A DNA stretch of 64,000 nt from Oligoflexales bacterium (GTDB taxonomy: Bacteria; Bdellovibrionota_B; Oligoflexia; Oligoflexales; RGVZ01), in contig CANLUT010000002.1 of NCBI GenBank assembly GCA_947494335.1, positions 710,364 through 774,363 of the forward strand, given 5' to 3'. The position numbers and the translations under genes were made by a program. Below the pieces are notes generated by a model. That model was given only the letters and a program-made list of their open reading frames with translations, searched no databases and was not told the DNA's origin. Below are positions 40,219-48,445 of this stretch, one piece after another. How positions within the stretch are numbered: position 1 is the stretch's first letter; every line of letters begins with the position of its first letter.

Positions 40219-40986
40219 ATGGGAATTTTTGACTTTTTGTTCTCCAAAACCTCGTCGCAGAGCACAGCATCAAAACATGGAGATGTGTATGCGCATCAGC
40301 GCTACCATGCTCGCTACGTGATCAATAACAGAGATCTTTGTGTCATGGAGCACCCAAAGCACGGTCTATTCCGGGTGGTGGATCTCTCCCATCATGGATG
40401 CCTGATTGAGCCGATGAGTCAGTCCAGTTTGGAGTCGGTAAGCACCCCTTTCTTCATGAATTTGAGACTTTGCGGATCTTCCACAAGAGTGGAGGCAGCC
40501 GAATGTCAACGCCGGCGTCATGGGTGGGCTTTAGTCTTCAGGCACGCTCAAGAGGCGTCCATTGCCGACTTAGGTCGGTTGATTGAGCCTCTGCGGATAG
40601 GCTGCTCATCTGTGGTGTTGGATACGGACTTTGAACGAGACGGCATTTTTGCGAAACTTCGCCGCCGTTTCATTGGGGATGGACCGTTTGAGGTTGTCTT
40701 TGAGAAAAATGAGCATGATGAACCTTCATTTGTCATGGTCACCTTGCGACATGGTACTGGCGATGGCTGTGTGATTTGGAATAAGGGAACGGTTATGACC
40801 AAAAAATCTCCAGACACAGAGGGGGCCTTCATGCCTCGAACTGAGCATGTGGATGAAGAGTTGGTATGGGCCTGCGCATCCGCTTGCCTGGGTATGAAGT
40901 TTCTTGAGGGAGCAATTGCAGCAAAATTACTAACTGACTGGTTATCGGCGCAGTCTTCCGTTCTGCCTTTGGCGAAGTCCAGTTAA
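40219..40986 (+). CDS. PilZ-like domain protein
   Basis: A 255-residue cytosolic protein. Residues about 27-110 fit a PilZ fold: RYHARY (RxxxR pattern), then VVDLSHHGCLIEP (DxSxxG) about 25 residues later, and WALVFRH at the end of the barrel. The C-terminal 130 residues are not recognised and contain FERDGIFAKLRRRF and a helical end. It may bind c-di-GMP. It is a single-gene unit closed by a strong bidirectional terminator shared with the convergent protease gene. Confidence 0.65.
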   Translation: MGIFDFLFSKTSSQSTASKHGDVYAHQRYHARYVINNRDLCVMEHPKHGLFRVVDLSHHGCLIEPMSQSSLESVSTPFFMNLRLCGSSTRVEAAECQRRRHGWALVFRHAQEASIADLGRLIEPLRIGCSSVVLDTDFERDGIFAKLRRRFIGDGPFEVVFEKNEHDEPSFVMVTLRHGTGDGCVIWNKGTVMTKKSPDTEGAFMPRTEHVDEELVWACASACLGMKFLEGAIAAKLLTDWLSAQSSVLPLAKSS

Positions 40987-40997
40987 TGACGTAAAAA

Positions 40998-41028
40998 AAC
41001 CCCCAAGTCATGTGCTGACTTGGGGGTT
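40998..41028. terminator. bidirectional Rho-independent terminator
   Basis: AACCCCCAAGTCA (40998-41010) and TGACTTGGGGGTT (41016-41028) pair perfectly over a 5-nt loop. A T-run follows on the + side, and seven As precede it, giving Ts on the minus side. It serves both the PilZ gene and the convergent protease gene. Confidence 0.95.
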
Positions 41029-41040
41029 TTCTGTTTTCGG

Positions 41041-43056
41041 TTATTTCTTTGGAACGCAGGCATCGCCGCTTGCGCACAGGAGTTTATCTGCATCCGCATT
41101 TGCAGATACCTTATGCCACCAGATGACAAAGTCACGTATCGAATAGACTGGGGTGTAAGATTGCTCTTCACGTTTATTACGCGTAGCAACGATCAGTTCC
41201 CCAACTCTGCCTTCACTTGCAGCAAATGAATTGCCAGGCTTAAGAATTCGCACACCCTTACTGACCATTGGCTGAAAGCTATCGGGATTGAGTTTGAAGC
41301 CCCCAACCATTTCATTGTTATTGATCGCCTCGATATTATTGCGATCTACAACCAGTTTTGATCCACGAATGATGGCATGACCATTGATAATCGCATGGCC
41401 ATTGATGATTGCGTGGCCATTGATGATCGCATGACCGTTCATAAGCCAGTATGCACTTGCCTGAGGTGATCTATCTTTTGACTTCAATGTTTCATCTGCA
41501 AAGCCAAAGACTTCTTGGAACGCCCATTCGCCGTTAAGAGGTGCAAAACGCTTTGGGCTTCCGAATCGTCCGTAGGTGCACTCGTTTTGATTACGAATCA
41601 GACGCAACACGCGGTCAAATGGATTGAACGTCAGAGAGCATCCGCTAGATTGGGACAGCCACTCTGTGGAAACATCTCGCAAGTTGGTCAAGTCAATAGC
41701 AACCAGAGAGTTTGTATCATTTGGACGCTCCATTGCCAGCCCAACAACCTCGCCGCTTGAATTGACAACCGGTCCACCGGATAGTCCCGCTTCTGCGAGA
41801 TTAATACTTGTATCAATCGCTTGAAGTTTGAATTTGATAAGTGGCCCAAAGTTGGATGTATCATCCGTTGGCCAACCATCGGGAGGCAAGTAACCACGTC
41901 GATGAACGATGGAGCCCTTTCCTGATACTGGGTATCCGAACACGTCAAACGCGACGGAATATTCCATCTTTCTAGCGATGGTTAGCCCCATCAAATCGGA
42001 CTCATTTAAGACTCCCTGAGCTAGAATTTCTTGCTCACCATCATGAGTCAGTGCCAGGAGTGCCAAGTCACTTTCCATGTTGGTGACCAAAAGTCGCGCC
42101 GCTCGCGTTGCCAGTTTGCCCCCAACTAACAGGTCGTAGGTATCACCATCGTCGAAGGCTAACTCAGCTTCATCAAGCATGTGGTGAATCTGACCGCGTT
42201 GTGAAGTTCCATAGCTGATGGGAAACAAGTGAGCTGCGGTCAAAATAAACTTCGTTGTTGCTGGAAGTGCTTTAAGTTGGGCGGCGGCCTCCGCACCGAA
42301 TATCGGCATCACAAGGTCGGAGTTCGCAACAAAAAAGCCAGATCCCAGAGAGAAGTTTCCTTCTAATGTAATTTGTACTGTTGAGCGCATAACGAGATTT
42401 CTATGGACTGCAGCCAAGGCTGGAAAGCTTGCAGTTACGCTACCCGCTGCATCTAATCGCGAGGCATGAATAGCCAGCGGACTTGGAATGGAGTCAAACA
42501 GAGGCTTCGGATAATGCTGCGCTTTCATCTCAGGTAGGATCACCCAAAACACACCGTTCTGGTGTGCGAATTGTTGACCTGCGACAGCAACACTTACGCT
42601 TAGGCCAACAGTGCCGCTTGGAGTGTGCGGTGAAATTCGCAAGTCGAGAACGCAGCGATATCCAGCAGCTGATTTCTCAAGGTCACAAGTAGCGGCCGTG
42701 ACGGAGGCATAACGCCCCGACAGACTACCATCAGATTTTTGATCCACAGTATTTTCAGTCGTCTCTGGCCAAGAACCGTGAAGCGATGTTGTTAGCGAAT
42801 CACTAGTCACTGGTTGCGAGTAGTACTGTTCAATCCGGAGCGTGCGCCACTCAGCAGAGGGACGCAGAACCGCGGGAACTCCAGGCGGGTAGACAAAACG
42901 CTCGCTGGGGTTGTCTGTAACCTGCCACATGACCGAGCTGAGCAAGCTCTGTTTTGAGCTGCCGAGGGCGTGCTGAGCAAAAGATGAAAACGACGCCGCT
43001 GCTAGAATGATAGAAAGCAGCAGACCTTCCTTGGATGACATACGCATGAATCTCAT
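41041..43056 (-). CDS. secreted trypsin-like serine protease with NGHAII tandem repeat
   Basis: About 671 residues from ATG 43056 (AAGGAT upstream; a GTG at 43098 extends the frame). Signal peptide at about 9-30. The N-terminal about 180 residues are beta-rich and unrecognised, with two Cys. The S1/HtrA-like catalytic domain has His276 (TAAHLF), Asp330 (ESDLALL) and Ser426 (AGLSGGPVV); no PDZ domain follows. Residues 540-563 are four perfect NGHAII hexapeptides. The C-terminus has paired Cys (LLCASGDACVPKK). It is divergent from a TPR/winged-helix regulator, each with its own promoter. Substrate unknown. Confidence 0.8.
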   Translation of the reverse strand: MRFMRMSSKEGLLLSIILAAASFSSFAQHALGSSKQSLLSSVMWQVTDNPSERFVYPPGVPAVLRPSAEWRTLRIEQYYSQPVTSDSLTTSLHGSWPETTENTVDQKSDGSLSGRYASVTAATCDLEKSAAGYRCVLDLRISPHTPSGTVGLSVSVAVAGQQFAHQNGVFWVILPEMKAQHYPKPLFDSIPSPLAIHASRLDAAGSVTASFPALAAVHRNLVMRSTVQITLEGNFSLGSGFFVANSDLVMPIFGAEAAAQLKALPATTKFILTAAHLFPISYGTSQRGQIHHMLDEAELAFDDGDTYDLLVGGKLATRAARLLVTNMESDLALLALTHDGEQEILAQGVLNESDLMGLTIARKMEYSVAFDVFGYPVSGKGSIVHRRGYLPPDGWPTDDTSNFGPLIKFKLQAIDTSINLAEAGLSGGPVVNSSGEVVGLAMERPNDTNSLVAIDLTNLRDVSTEWLSQSSGCSLTFNPFDRVLRLIRNQNECTYGRFGSPKRFAPLNGEWAFQEVFGFADETLKSKDRSPQASAYWLMNGHAIINGHAIINGHAIINGHAIIRGSKLVVDRNNIEAINNNEMVGGFKLNPDSFQPMVSKGVRILKPGNSFAASEGRVGELIVATRNKREEQSYTPVYSIRDFVIWWHKVSANADADKLLCASGDACVPKK
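41368..41439 (-). repeat. four tandem 18-bp units encoding NGHAII
   Basis: Four head-to-tail 18-bp units lie at 41422-41439, 41404-41421, 41386-41403 and 41368-41385. Every difference between units is synonymous at third codon positions (for example AAC/AAT, GGT/GGC, GCG/GCA/GCC, ATC/ATT). The peptide is therefore identical while the DNA has drifted, which points to selection on the amino-acid sequence. Confidence 0.95.
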
Positions 43057-43133
43057 TCGGACAGATCCTTTATCCTTTTGATGATCTAGGCGAAACACTA
43101 AATAAACGTGAATTCCGATAATTTATGGCTATA

Positions 43134-43287: not shown

Positions 43288-45477
43288 ATGACTACCGAGC
43301 GCGTTGAACTAGCACTCAAACTTGCCAAAGACTGCCATACAAAAGTCCAATGGGATGAATTTCTTGCGAAATTTAGCGATCTGCTGTCCTCAGCTCCGAA
43401 CCCTAGACTCGTTACCGACGTATTTAAACGCCTAGAGGCAGACCCTCAATCACTACATTATAGTCCTCAGCTTTGGGGGGCTTTGCTGCAGGGGGCGATG
43501 GCCTGCTGGAACACGGAAACCGGCGCAGTCGTAGCAGAGTTTTCCAAGAAACTGACATCGCCCGTGGTCAGTATCCCGGCTGCCCAAGTTCTGCTTGAGG
43601 CCGGAAAGCCGGCCATTAGCCGCGAATTCGCTCAACGCGCTCTACGCCATGTTGGTTTGACTGATCTTGAGCGTATCCAGCTTGAACTGATTGTGGCCTC
43701 CAGCTTTGCTGAGGAGGGCAAAACTGATCATGCAGTGAGGGTTTTGAATAAGGTTGCCCCGATGGTTCGCAGTGCCGCGATGACTCAGCGCGAGCGTGCT
43801 GATTTCGTGGTGCGGTTAGGTCGACTTCATTATTTTATGGGCCGTTATCCGGCTGCTGCTGTTGCATTCGAAGAAGCATCTCCTCTCCTTTTGGAGCTTC
43901 AAGATTGGGAGGGTGCAGCACGCGCTCTATTCAATGCTGGTGCTTGTATTCAAAACAGTGGATGCGACAGTAACGAAGGTGCTGTCACAATGGTTGAGCG
44001 TTGTCGTAAATTGAGTGTTGAGCATAATCTTGCCGGTCCACTCTCTCACTGTGAGGCTTTTTACGGCGTTGAGGCATTTAATACCGGAAATTTCATGGCC
44101 GCTCGTGAGCATTTTCGCCGCGCTCTCACTGTTCTTCCTGCGAGTGACAAAACATTTAGACGACTGCATATCGTTTCGTTTCTAAGTCTCACCTACTTTG
44201 CTCTAGGTCGTTACAGTCTTGGAATTAAGTTTGGTCGTCAAACTCTTGAACTCGCTGCCGAAGATGCAAGCGAACGCTTTAAGACCAGATATCAATCGCT
44301 CGAGGCAGAGATTTTATGGGAAGAGGGTAAAATTCCTGAAAGTATGGACGTGCTGAAAGCCTCCGCTCATCAGCTATCTCTTCACGGTGTAAGAAATCTT
44401 GAGGAAATATCGACGTTGACTCGTTACCAGGTGCAGCTCGCTATATTGGGTGAGACAACAACCGAAAAATTCAAAATCGAAGAATCGTTAAAGCGCAATC
44501 AGTCGACCTGGCTTGAATACCTGTATTCATGTGCATTACAAAAATGTTCTCTGGATTATTTTGATGAAAGTATGGCACTGCTGACTGATTGCCTCGAAAA
44601 GGCAAAAGCGGCGGGGTCGTTGCAGTATCATGCGCTCATTCTTTTGGCCATGATCAGGCTTTATTTGCAAAAACATGACCTCAGAAAAGTACAGGAACTT
44701 TTGCCTTCGCTTGAAGCGGCTGTCAGTCGCTTGGGCGATACGCCGATCAGGGCTAAGCTTCAATTTGTTTATGCTGCTTTGGCCTATCAATCAGGCGATT
44801 TTGATCGAACGATAAAGTTACTGCATGCCGTGGAGAAAATGACAGCCGTTAGCTGGCCAGACCGATTTGCGGCCCACTCTTGTCTTGCAACGGTTCGTGG
44901 AGAGAGTCCGCGTTTTCAGTTTAGATGGCAAGAACAAATTGTATCCCGCTTCGTTCGTAGCTACTTCGCTCCAACAATTAAAATGCTAGATAATCGCTCC
45001 TTCGTCGTGTCCGATCATTACGTTATCTCTCTTGAAAAACACCCTGCCATGGCGGATCTTGTTCAGTACCTGTCAGAGCGTGGTTCAGACGGAGCCACTC
45101 TGGCTGAAATTCAAACGGATGTTTGGAAGGAGAGTACCAATGCTCAGGGGTGGCAGCAGAAGATCAGGAATGCAGTCATGCGAGTTCGGGACCACTTTCC
45201 TCAAACCATTGCCCCTATTCTTATTCATCATGACACGCTGAGATTTTTCGGCGAGGCTATCAGAGTTTTGAGAGATCACGATGATGGGATGGCAATTGAG
45301 CAAAGGGTTCACATGATGCTTCGCGAAGGGGCGCTTTCAAGTCAGCAGATTGCCGAAAAGATCGATGTATCCCTCGCGACTGCCAAGCGCCTTCTTAAGA
45401 AAATGTCTGACGATCAGTTGATTAAGGCGGAGAAGCATGGGCGTCATGTTATATACGCTAATTCAAGCTTGAACTGA
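43288..45477 (+). CDS. large TPR protein with C-terminal winged-helix domains (regulator)
   Basis: A 729-residue cytosolic protein. Residues about 90-520 are helical repeats of TPR type (for example the units around LGRLHYFMGRYPAAAVAFEEA and VYAALAYQSGDFDRTIKLLHAV). Residues about 575-655 resemble a winged-helix OmpR/SARP-like DNA-binding domain. The last about 60 residues (LREGALSSQQIAEKIDVSLATAKRLLKKM) are a second helix-turn-helix of ArsR/MarR style ending in a wing (GRHVIYA). It is probably a transcription factor whose TPR array senses a protein or peptide. Own promoter; GAGAGGA before the ATG. Divergence from the secreted protease suggests control of that gene. The family is not recognised precisely. 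Confidence 0.75.
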   Translation: MTTERVELALKLAKDCHTKVQWDEFLAKFSDLLSSAPNPRLVTDVFKRLEADPQSLHYSPQLWGALLQGAMACWNTETGAVVAEFSKKLTSPVVSIPAAQVLLEAGKPAISREFAQRALRHVGLTDLERIQLELIVASSFAEEGKTDHAVRVLNKVAPMVRSAAMTQRERADFVVRLGRLHYFMGRYPAAAVAFEEASPLLLELQDWEGAARALFNAGACIQNSGCDSNEGAVTMVERCRKLSVEHNLAGPLSHCEAFYGVEAFNTGNFMAAREHFRRALTVLPASDKTFRRLHIVSFLSLTYFALGRYSLGIKFGRQTLELAAEDASERFKTRYQSLEAEILWEEGKIPESMDVLKASAHQLSLHGVRNLEEISTLTRYQVQLAILGETTTEKFKIEESLKRNQSTWLEYLYSCALQKCSLDYFDESMALLTDCLEKAKAAGSLQYHALILLAMIRLYLQKHDLRKVQELLPSLEAAVSRLGDTPIRAKLQFVYAALAYQSGDFDRTIKLLHAVEKMTAVSWPDRFAAHSCLATVRGESPRFQFRWQEQIVSRFVRSYFAPTIKMLDNRSFVVSDHYVISLEKHPAMADLVQYLSERGSDGATLAEIQTDVWKESTNAQGWQQKIRNAVMRVRDHFPQTIAPILIHHDTLRFFGEAIRVLRDHDDGMAIEQRVHMMLREGALSSQQIAEKIDVSLATAKRLLKKMSDDQLIKAEKHGRHVIYANSSLN

Positions 45478-45673: not shown

Positions 45674-48445
45674 CTATCTTGCCAAGAGTTTTCCATCTTC
45701 GATCCGGAATTCGAGATGCTTTTCGTCGCTCCAAAGAAGGCCGTTTGTCGATACCGCTAGCGTTAGTTTGAATTCCCCTCCGCTGGCAATGGCCTCTTCG
45801 GAGATGACATTGGCAATCACGCTTTGTGGCCCAGAAAGTTTAACAATGAAGTTGTTACGGTCGGCAATCGGTGTATTCAGTTCGTTTGTCACGGGTATCT
45901 CAACAACATCTTCGATTAACTTCAGCTTCGCCAGCTGGACGCGTCCGGCCTGCTCAAGTCTTACATAAACTCTGATATTTTGCGACGACGATAAGCGGGA
46001 TACCGAGGTTTTGGTTACCAGAACGGGCGTCAGTGAGGTGGCCTCGCGTAGCTTCGGAGACCTTGCTACTGGTTCTTTATAAAGTGAGATCTTTTTGACG
46101 CGAGGTTTGATGCCAAAAAACGTGAGATTGGCCGGATCGAACTTGCTCTCAACATCCTTAGTTGAATCGTAACGAGCAGGGGGCGGGAAAGGCTTTTCTC
46201 CGCGGAAACGGCGGCCATTAAGCTGAGCAAATTTTTTCCGCACGTCCTCTGGAGCGTTGCCCTTGGATTGAGTCTCAAGCTCCACCTGTCGTGGAACTTG
46301 TTTAAGATCAGACACCGCTAGCAAGGCCTCAACTCGCTCTAACGGATACTCGGTAGCAAAAAAACGTCGCAAGGCGATTTGTTTTTCCTCTGGTGTTGTG
46401 GATTTCTCAAAGTCTTTTAACGCAGCAACAGCGTCTTCAATTTCATTGACGGCATCAGCTGTATGCCAGCGCAAGTCAAGTAGCCTCAGGGGCATAAGGA
46501 GAAGACCGCTGCTACGGTATAGATTGCGGCGCCAAAGGGATCGTTCCCATGATAGACATGTTTCTTCATCTGTAATTTTGAATGAAGAGCAAAAGGCTAA
46601 CCAAAGTACTTGTCGCGGAAGTGATGCGACGGTTTGAATTTGTGCGTGGGTCAGACGCACACTTGCATAACCCTCGAAACGACCGAGATGTGTAGGAGTC
46701 ACGTGAAGAAGATGGTCTCGACTCATGTCAGTTTGAAAAACGGCCGCACGTCTACGCTCAGCAAGAAGATCGGGTTCACGCGTTGCAAATTGAGGTAAGC
46801 CCGTCATTTCAAGTTTTGTAAATCGTGACAAATCTGACAAATAGTCGGCTAGCTCTTCGGTCTCTACAAACTTATCTGTTATCGCAAGACTAAAGCCAAC
46901 ATCGACTGTGTTGTCTTCGGCAGTGAATTCAAACCTGCTTTTGAGTTCGTTGTTATCGGTTTCTTTTTCAACAACTTTACGAACTTTCAACTCAGCTTGG
47001 AGAGTTATGTTTTGCTCACTACGCCCGGTCAGCATGTTCCATCTGGCTACGTCGTGATCTTCTTTTGCCTCTAAGATATGAAAGCGACCCGTATTATCCG
47101 TGATCTCGATCTCTGCATCGGAATGCATTCTCTTTGTTTTTTTGTTGATAATGAACGCGCTATGTCCTGTACCAAATCCTCTGTCGAAACGTTTTTCATT
47201 CTTGTCATGGAAAAATTTAACGCCAGTGTCAAAACCATCTTCCTTTGCCCGTAATGCAGATATTTGTGCGGCCGCAAAATTCCCATGAACGGCCTCAATG
47301 AAGGCAGTCTTGGCTTCGTCATTGCGTAAATTAAAGGCGTAAACGCGTGAAAATATGTCGCTCACACCTTCTTCGTAGGCAAAATCAATTGGGAAGACGT
47401 GGGCGGGCATGCCGCGCCAGAGAGGGATGGTTTTGGATAGCAAATAATATGTTTTTCCAAGCTTACTCTCGAAACGGTGTCCGAGCCTGCTGGTGTCAGA
47501 GACCCCAACCCAAACCGTTGTAGCGTCTTTCTTCAGAATATTGACTCGATACTCTCCTGTCCTGAAAACGGTGTAGGGTAGCTTCATGTCCAATGCGGTC
47601 GGTCCGGTCATCATTTGGTCTTTTAGCCCATGAATACCATCTGCAATCTCTGCTCCGATGTTGATGCCGCCGCTGATGGCGTAACTTTTAATGGTTCCAA
47701 TATCCATAGATTCGACCGCAGGAATTGAAAGAGGGAAGTTGAATGGAGCTTCGAGCCTCTTTAAAGGATCGTATAATTCATTTGCATTAAAAGATGGTGG
47801 CAAAATGGCTTCAAGTAAAGGCAGAGCTCCAAACCAGTTGTTGATAGCTGTTCGCCACCACGGTAAGTTTTTGTTGTCAAGAACACGCATGGGATCGGTG
47901 CGCAGATAAATGTCATAGACATCTGTTGACTGATTGGCTCCCAGATTGATCGGAATCCCGTTGTATCTATAAAGCTCACGATTATACTCGGGACCTAAAC
48001 CAAAACGATCAACAATAACATAAGCTCCGCTTCGCGCTGAGAATACATCGCGAGTAAATCCTAGGGTCATATTTGCAGTGTCCGTTAAAGGCCACTTAAG
48101 TTTGTTATCCATCAGATTATAAAAGATGGACTCCATCAATGTTTCTATCGATTGGTTGATAGCATCAGCGCCGCTTGAAATTCCTGATGCGAATATTGGA
48201 TTTTTAAATAATCTCTCAATCGGTCGTCCTGAAGCCTGATCTGGATCATCAGGGGTTTCGTCGTCATACTCGATAACTGTGCTGGTAGTTTCTGTTGGCG
48301 CAGCCTGCTTTGCGGGGACAGTCTTTACCAGTGGGTTCTTGCTGGCTGCCTTGGGAGCTCCCTGGCTCTCGAATGTCCCAAAGACGGTGGTTGCCATCAG
48401 TGTAACTATGCCAATTAAAAATAGAGTTTTCTTAGCCGAGCTCAT
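45674..48445 (-). CDS. large exported protein of unknown function (923 residues)
   Basis: Starts with a typical signal sequence (hydrophobic LFLIGIVTLMATTVFG) followed by a Lys/Ala/Pro/Thr linker. About residues 80-300 look compact, with aromatic and Gly-rich segments (WWRTAINNWFGALPLL, YAISGGINIGAEIADG). About 300-560 are beta-rich and contain a RFDRGFGTGHSAFIINKKTK segment. The end (about 830-923) looks like one or two Ig/beta-sandwich strands. No catalytic motif or known family is recognised. The ATG overlaps the stop of the upstream barrel gene (ATGA), so the two are made together. It may be secreted, periplasmic or surface-held through the barrel. Confidence 0.65.
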   Translation of the reverse strand: MSSAKKTLFLIGIVTLMATTVFGTFESQGAPKAASKNPLVKTVPAKQAAPTETTSTVIEYDDETPDDPDQASGRPIERLFKNPIFASGISSGADAINQSIETLMESIFYNLMDNKLKWPLTDTANMTLGFTRDVFSARSGAYVIVDRFGLGPEYNRELYRYNGIPINLGANQSTDVYDIYLRTDPMRVLDNKNLPWWRTAINNWFGALPLLEAILPPSFNANELYDPLKRLEAPFNFPLSIPAVESMDIGTIKSYAISGGINIGAEIADGIHGLKDQMMTGPTALDMKLPYTVFRTGEYRVNILKKDATTVWVGVSDTSRLGHRFESKLGKTYYLLSKTIPLWRGMPAHVFPIDFAYEEGVSDIFSRVYAFNLRNDEAKTAFIEAVHGNFAAAQISALRAKEDGFDTGVKFFHDKNEKRFDRGFGTGHSAFIINKKTKRMHSDAEIEITDNTGRFHILEAKEDHDVARWNMLTGRSEQNITLQAELKVRKVVEKETDNNELKSRFEFTAEDNTVDVGFSLAITDKFVETEELADYLSDLSRFTKLEMTGLPQFATREPDLLAERRRAAVFQTDMSRDHLLHVTPTHLGRFEGYASVRLTHAQIQTVASLPRQVLWLAFCSSFKITDEETCLSWERSLWRRNLYRSSGLLLMPLRLLDLRWHTADAVNEIEDAVAALKDFEKSTTPEEKQIALRRFFATEYPLERVEALLAVSDLKQVPRQVELETQSKGNAPEDVRKKFAQLNGRRFRGEKPFPPPARYDSTKDVESKFDPANLTFFGIKPRVKKISLYKEPVARSPKLREATSLTPVLVTKTSVSRLSSSQNIRVYVRLEQAGRVQLAKLKLIEDVVEIPVTNELNTPIADRNNFIVKLSGPQSVIANVISEEAIASGGEFKLTLAVSTNGLLWSDEKHLEFRIEDGKLLAR

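Follow-up and report, generated by a model that had tools for sequence, protein, structure and literature searches.

An exported HtrA/DegS-like protease confined to the Oligoflexales is probably encoded at positions 41041–43056 of the window (the whole 64,000-nucleotide stretch of DNA that was analyzed), and its tandem NGHAII hexads probably form a turn-strand beta element with a structural or docking role. A purine-rich AAGGAT lies upstream of the ATG at 43056, and an alternative GTG start at 43098 would lengthen the protein from 671 to 685 residues. A search of the organism's own genome found the gene to be single copy. The locus contains the following features.

41041–43056, minus strand: secreted HtrA-like serine protease gene, 671 amino acids from ATG 43056 (open frame; Pfam Trypsin_2 in 15 of 15 homologs; family alignment).
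42955–43056, minus strand: probable Sec signal peptide, residues 1 to about 34, hydrophobic LLLSIILAAASFSSFA (sequence inspection; unstructured in the model).
42532–42954, minus strand: N-terminal beta-rich domain, residues 35–175, with conserved Cys124 and Cys135 (AF2 pLDDT mostly 84–96; both Cys in all 14 members covering it).
41671–42423, minus strand: protease domain, residues 212–462, with an HtrA/DegS-like fold (VIA-align Z 17–19 to AlgW, DegP, and DegS; invariant triad).
42229–42231, 42067–42069, and 41779–41781, minus strand: catalytic triad His276, Asp330, and Ser426, respectively (family alignment).
41044–41655, minus strand: C-terminal domain, residues 468–671, with invariant Cys473/Cys493 and the Cys661/Cys667 pair, without a Pfam family.
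41368–41439, minus strand: array of four NGHAII hexads, residues 540–563 (translation; TRF; codon comparison).
40996–41030, no strand assigned: strong symmetric terminator hairpin with a 15-pair stem, separating the protease 3' end from the convergent ORF 40219–40986.
43288–45477, plus strand: divergent TPR and winged-helix putative regulator, 729 amino acids (Pfam TPR and HTH; synteny; co-occurrence).

A full-length AlphaFold (AF2) model of the window protein (mean pLDDT 76.5, pTM 0.77) places the protease domain between the N-terminal beta domain and the C-terminal domain. Judged by inspection, the N terminus is probably a Sec signal peptide, and its hydrophobic character together with the conserved cysteines is consistent with export and disulfides. 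The catalytic triad and the GLSGGP around its Ser are invariant in 15 of 15 homologs, and the His-Asp-Ser order and GxSGGP motif are as in the chymotrypsin-fold proteases of clan PA. The Pfam Trypsin_2 profile matched all 15 members, with the window protein 0.3 bits below the cut-off. The predicted model has a two-barrel fold (VIA-align Z up to 19.4, rmsd 2.4 over 180 residues), and the protease domain aligns with AlgW, Rv0983, DegP, and DegS with Z 17–19 over about 180 residues. These data support the description in the earlier note of a secreted S1-type serine protease with an intact triad, the secretion being read from export-type features of the sequence.

The protein resembles HtrA, DegP, and DegS (MEROPS S1C) in the fold of its protease domain, the order of the triad, the SGGP motif, and export. 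Unlike those proteins, the window family adds an N-terminal beta domain and an unrelated, hexad-bearing C-terminal domain, and no PDZ domain was matched by Pfam profiles in any of 15 members. Identity to HtrA, DegP, and DegS is 16–25%, and the score lies far below the NCBIfam cut-offs (Do/HtrA model, 13.0 bits compared to 416). Because no PDZ domain was detected, the protein is classed outside the HtrA family, as one that combines an HtrA-like protease domain with a new C-terminal architecture. Its protease domain also has profile-level similarity to staphylococcal Spl-type and other Trypsin_2 proteases, but Spl chains are single-domain proteins of about 205 residues and the window protein is about three times longer. 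The C-terminal domain matched no Pfam family. Its Cys473 and Cys493 are kept in all members covering them, and Cys661 and Cys667 in 12 of 15. Foldseek found no usable match for this domain in the PDB, a result that says little because the model was built from 15 sequences and has a mean pLDDT of 72.

Of 43 Oligoflexales genomes, 18 contain the family by a profile built from 15 homologs; the profile detected it in 0 of 15 other genomes searched from the rest of the phylum. Matching public records are mostly MAGs of Oligoflexales, Oligoflexia, or Pseudobacteriovorax, some of them apparently lake-derived. A tandem DNA pattern for GHx[IV][IV]NGHx[IV][IV] was searched across 383 genomes and matched in Oligoflexales only, at contig positions that coincide with genes of the protease family; its reversed control had no match in the 383 genomes. 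The confinement of the pattern to these genes and the empty control place the array above chance. The same pattern, which degenerate arrays would escape, found no hexad array in any other protein of the 383 genomes. A mobile or phage origin was rejected on the lack of a plasmid match, the lack of a phage match for the C-terminal domain, and the absence of the array pattern from viral contigs. Among the matches listed, a literature search with the hexapeptide returned only place names such as Qinghai, and nothing was found that joined a left-handed beta-helix to a serine protease. The remark in the earlier note that the element is unfamiliar in any protease family agrees with these searches, since the hexad array was not found outside the family in the collections covered.

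The array in the window protein reads MNGHAII-NGHAII-NGHAII-NGHAII-RGSKLVV. It consists of four perfect units at residues 540–563, and INGHAI is complete only three times because a Met precedes the first hexad. TRF reported a single tandem repeat in the window, at 41375–41444 with period 18 and 3.9 copies. Comparison of the units with one another, summed over pairs, gave 21 synonymous differences (24 sites) and 0 nonsynonymous differences (84 sites). These data confirm the starting observation of four NGHAII units near the C terminus whose codons vary at synonymous sites only.

Every homolog with a readable C-terminal domain carries the array. The hexad count is four in 13 of the 16 members, whereas G032 and G029 have five and G001 has six; in these counts, degenerate hexads were placed by visual inspection according to the six-residue spacing. 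A repeat absent or random in homologs had been named beforehand as the outcome that would speak against a conserved element; the repeat-number comparison instead returned an array wherever the domain was readable, mostly of four hexads. Perfect units read NGHAII in G032 and G029 of family f8 and in most members of the window's genus, NGHTVI in G010, NGHSII in G034, and NGHGII in G025 and G014. In G013 (locus L053) the units are NGQSII, with Gln for His in all three perfect units; this array is a ready-made natural test of the role of the His. S, A, and T are mixed at position 4 in G035, one residue is inserted in each of two units in G005 to give seven-residue units, and G018 and G024 keep one HGHxII with the other hexads degenerate. 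Over 64 hexads, Gly is found in 60, His in 51, I/V/L at position 5 in 60 and at position 6 in 57, and position 4 is small. Substitutions at residue 4 (A, T, S, G, or I) tend to affect all units of an array together. This residue is common to units 2 and 3 in 6 of 10 lineages compared to a shuffled mean of 2.2 (p 0.009), a p value that is only indicative because the ten lineages are not fully independent.

The peptide is under purifying selection. In each of three pairings, the window with G002 and the window with G004 (both within the genus) and G000 with G029, the repeat had 11 synonymous and 0 nonsynonymous differences (56 sites for the latter in the G004 pairing), whereas the rest of the protein differed by 0.142, 0.374, and 0.406 nonsynonymous changes per site, respectively. 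Synonymous divergence in these pairings was 0.69 per site in the repeat compared to 0.78–0.83 in the rest, the higher value being that of the G004 pairing. Because the synonymous sites between units are near saturation, recent copying cannot explain the identical peptides of the window, and the absence of nonsynonymous differences against many synonymous ones, both between species and between units, shows that the uniform peptide is held by selection. The proposal that the hexad peptide is selected is borne out by these pairings. That the array is instead a neutral product of replication slippage, without a function of its own, is scarcely credible. Copy number does vary, with one extra unit each in G032 and G029 and two in G001, and residue 4 changes in concert; slippage would give both, and they indicate that units are occasionally recopied over longer times. 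The substitution pattern and the four-hexad frame retained in most members argue against a neutral array, and the former rules out slippage without selection.

The idea that the hexad His residues form a metal-binding ladder is not supported and is highly improbable. The His residues are spaced six residues apart, number up to six, and occur in 51 of 64 hexads, as a ladder would require. G013, however, has Gln in all three of its perfect units, G018 and G024 keep a single His, and other members have F, Y, K, R, or Q at this position. On geometric grounds, neither a three-sided helix nor a hairpin meander should bring four consecutive hexads onto one face. The metal ladder was rejected on the Gln variant of G013.

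Models of moderate confidence suggest a beta structure for the array. The full-length model gives the first hexad a pLDDT below 50 and the others about 78, and strands in and after the array lie at residues 544–545, 548–552, 556–557, 560–561, and 567–571. The model of the six-hexad homolog (G001) has strands on the last three hexads only, with moderate confidence, and low confidence for the extra copies. In both models the last three hexads carry short strands and NG lies at the turns, and the low-confidence units indicate that part of the array could be flexible. The modeled strand positions, which come from the tool without strand pairing, fit a hairpin meander as well as a single left-handed coil.

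That the element is a small left-handed beta-helix, built with three hexads to a coil and joined to the C-terminal domain, is unlikely, although several observations favor it. The rule [LIV]-x-x-x-[STAV]-x, which the earlier note applied to INGHAI, is in this relaxed form an exact fit to three of the four units in the window protein, the first being preceded by Met, and residue 4 is mostly A/S/T/V/G. Model strands are 18–19 residues apart (544–545/563 and 548–552/567–571), as one coil would give. The best match in a PDB sequence search with the array was YdcK (E 1.3e-5), followed by weak matches to LpxD and LpxA, and these known hexapeptide proteins share with the array a six-residue period and aliphatic and small residues. 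The family variants NGQSII and NGHGII matched no hexapeptide protein in the PDB, a scrambled-unit control had no match, and a reversed array also drew weak beta-solenoid matches; the YdcK match is therefore attributed to shared period and composition rather than homology. The PROSITE-type hexapeptide signature was found in 0 of 15 members, and for this reason the protein is not filed as a hexapeptide-repeat protein. Most members have only about 1.3 coils, modeled at low AlphaFold confidence, compared to the many coils of YdcK, LpxA, and LpxD, and the window family differs further in having Asn at i+1 and in not being an acyltransferase. Position 5, whose side chain faces outward in a helix of this kind, is I/V/L in almost every hexad, two units of G005 carry a one-residue insertion, and Foldseek gave the C-terminal domain no match.

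The favored reading is the turn-strand beta element. The N-terminal beta domain and the disulfide-type C-terminal domain would flank the protease, the latter standing at the position of the PDZ domain in HtrA. About four hexads of the form [N]-G-[H/Q]-[small]-[I/V]-[I/V] would supply Asn-Gly turns between short Ile-rich strands, and the putative strand edges may take the part of a PDZ domain in docking substrates or in oligomer contacts. A stronger version is quite doubtful: the array would be a new minimal turn-strand beta module that plays the PDZ role. Its strand edges would bind a substrate or partner and thereby govern the active site, and occasional recopying together with strong selection on the peptide would keep its hexads alike.

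The divergent TPR/winged-helix protein may regulate the protease. Its gene adjoins the protease gene in 13 of the 14 family loci examined (L021–L034); in the remaining locus, L033, which lies at a contig edge, no more than the 3' part of the protease gene is present. The order regulator, protease, rimP-nusA is constant from 76% to 28% protein identity. The regulator is also present without the protease in G016, G023, G027, G028, G038, and weakly G030, so the link is not obligatory in these five or six genomes of the order. G016, G023, and G027 lack the protease gene but retain rimP, nusA, and, at the position of 40219–40986, a small ORF of similar size. An intergenic alignment of five genus members, examined for a shared operator of the divergent regulator, had only scattered conserved positions. 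Genomes of genus g9 (L084, L085, and L086) are missing the protease gene and retain the regulator and the rimP-nusA neighbors. ORF 40219–40986 (plus strand, 255 amino acids) has no Pfam match, and several relatives keep it in its place between the protease gene and rimP. ORF 45674–48445 (minus strand, 923 amino acids), beside the regulator, has no Pfam or NCBIfam match.

The array is a clear natural case of a perfect peptide repeat kept by selection while its DNA units are near saturation at synonymous sites. The family defines an unannotated protease architecture in the poorly studied order Oligoflexales (class Oligoflexia). Its C-terminal domain is without an annotated relative here, and a structure would probably show a short hexad array built into a globular domain.
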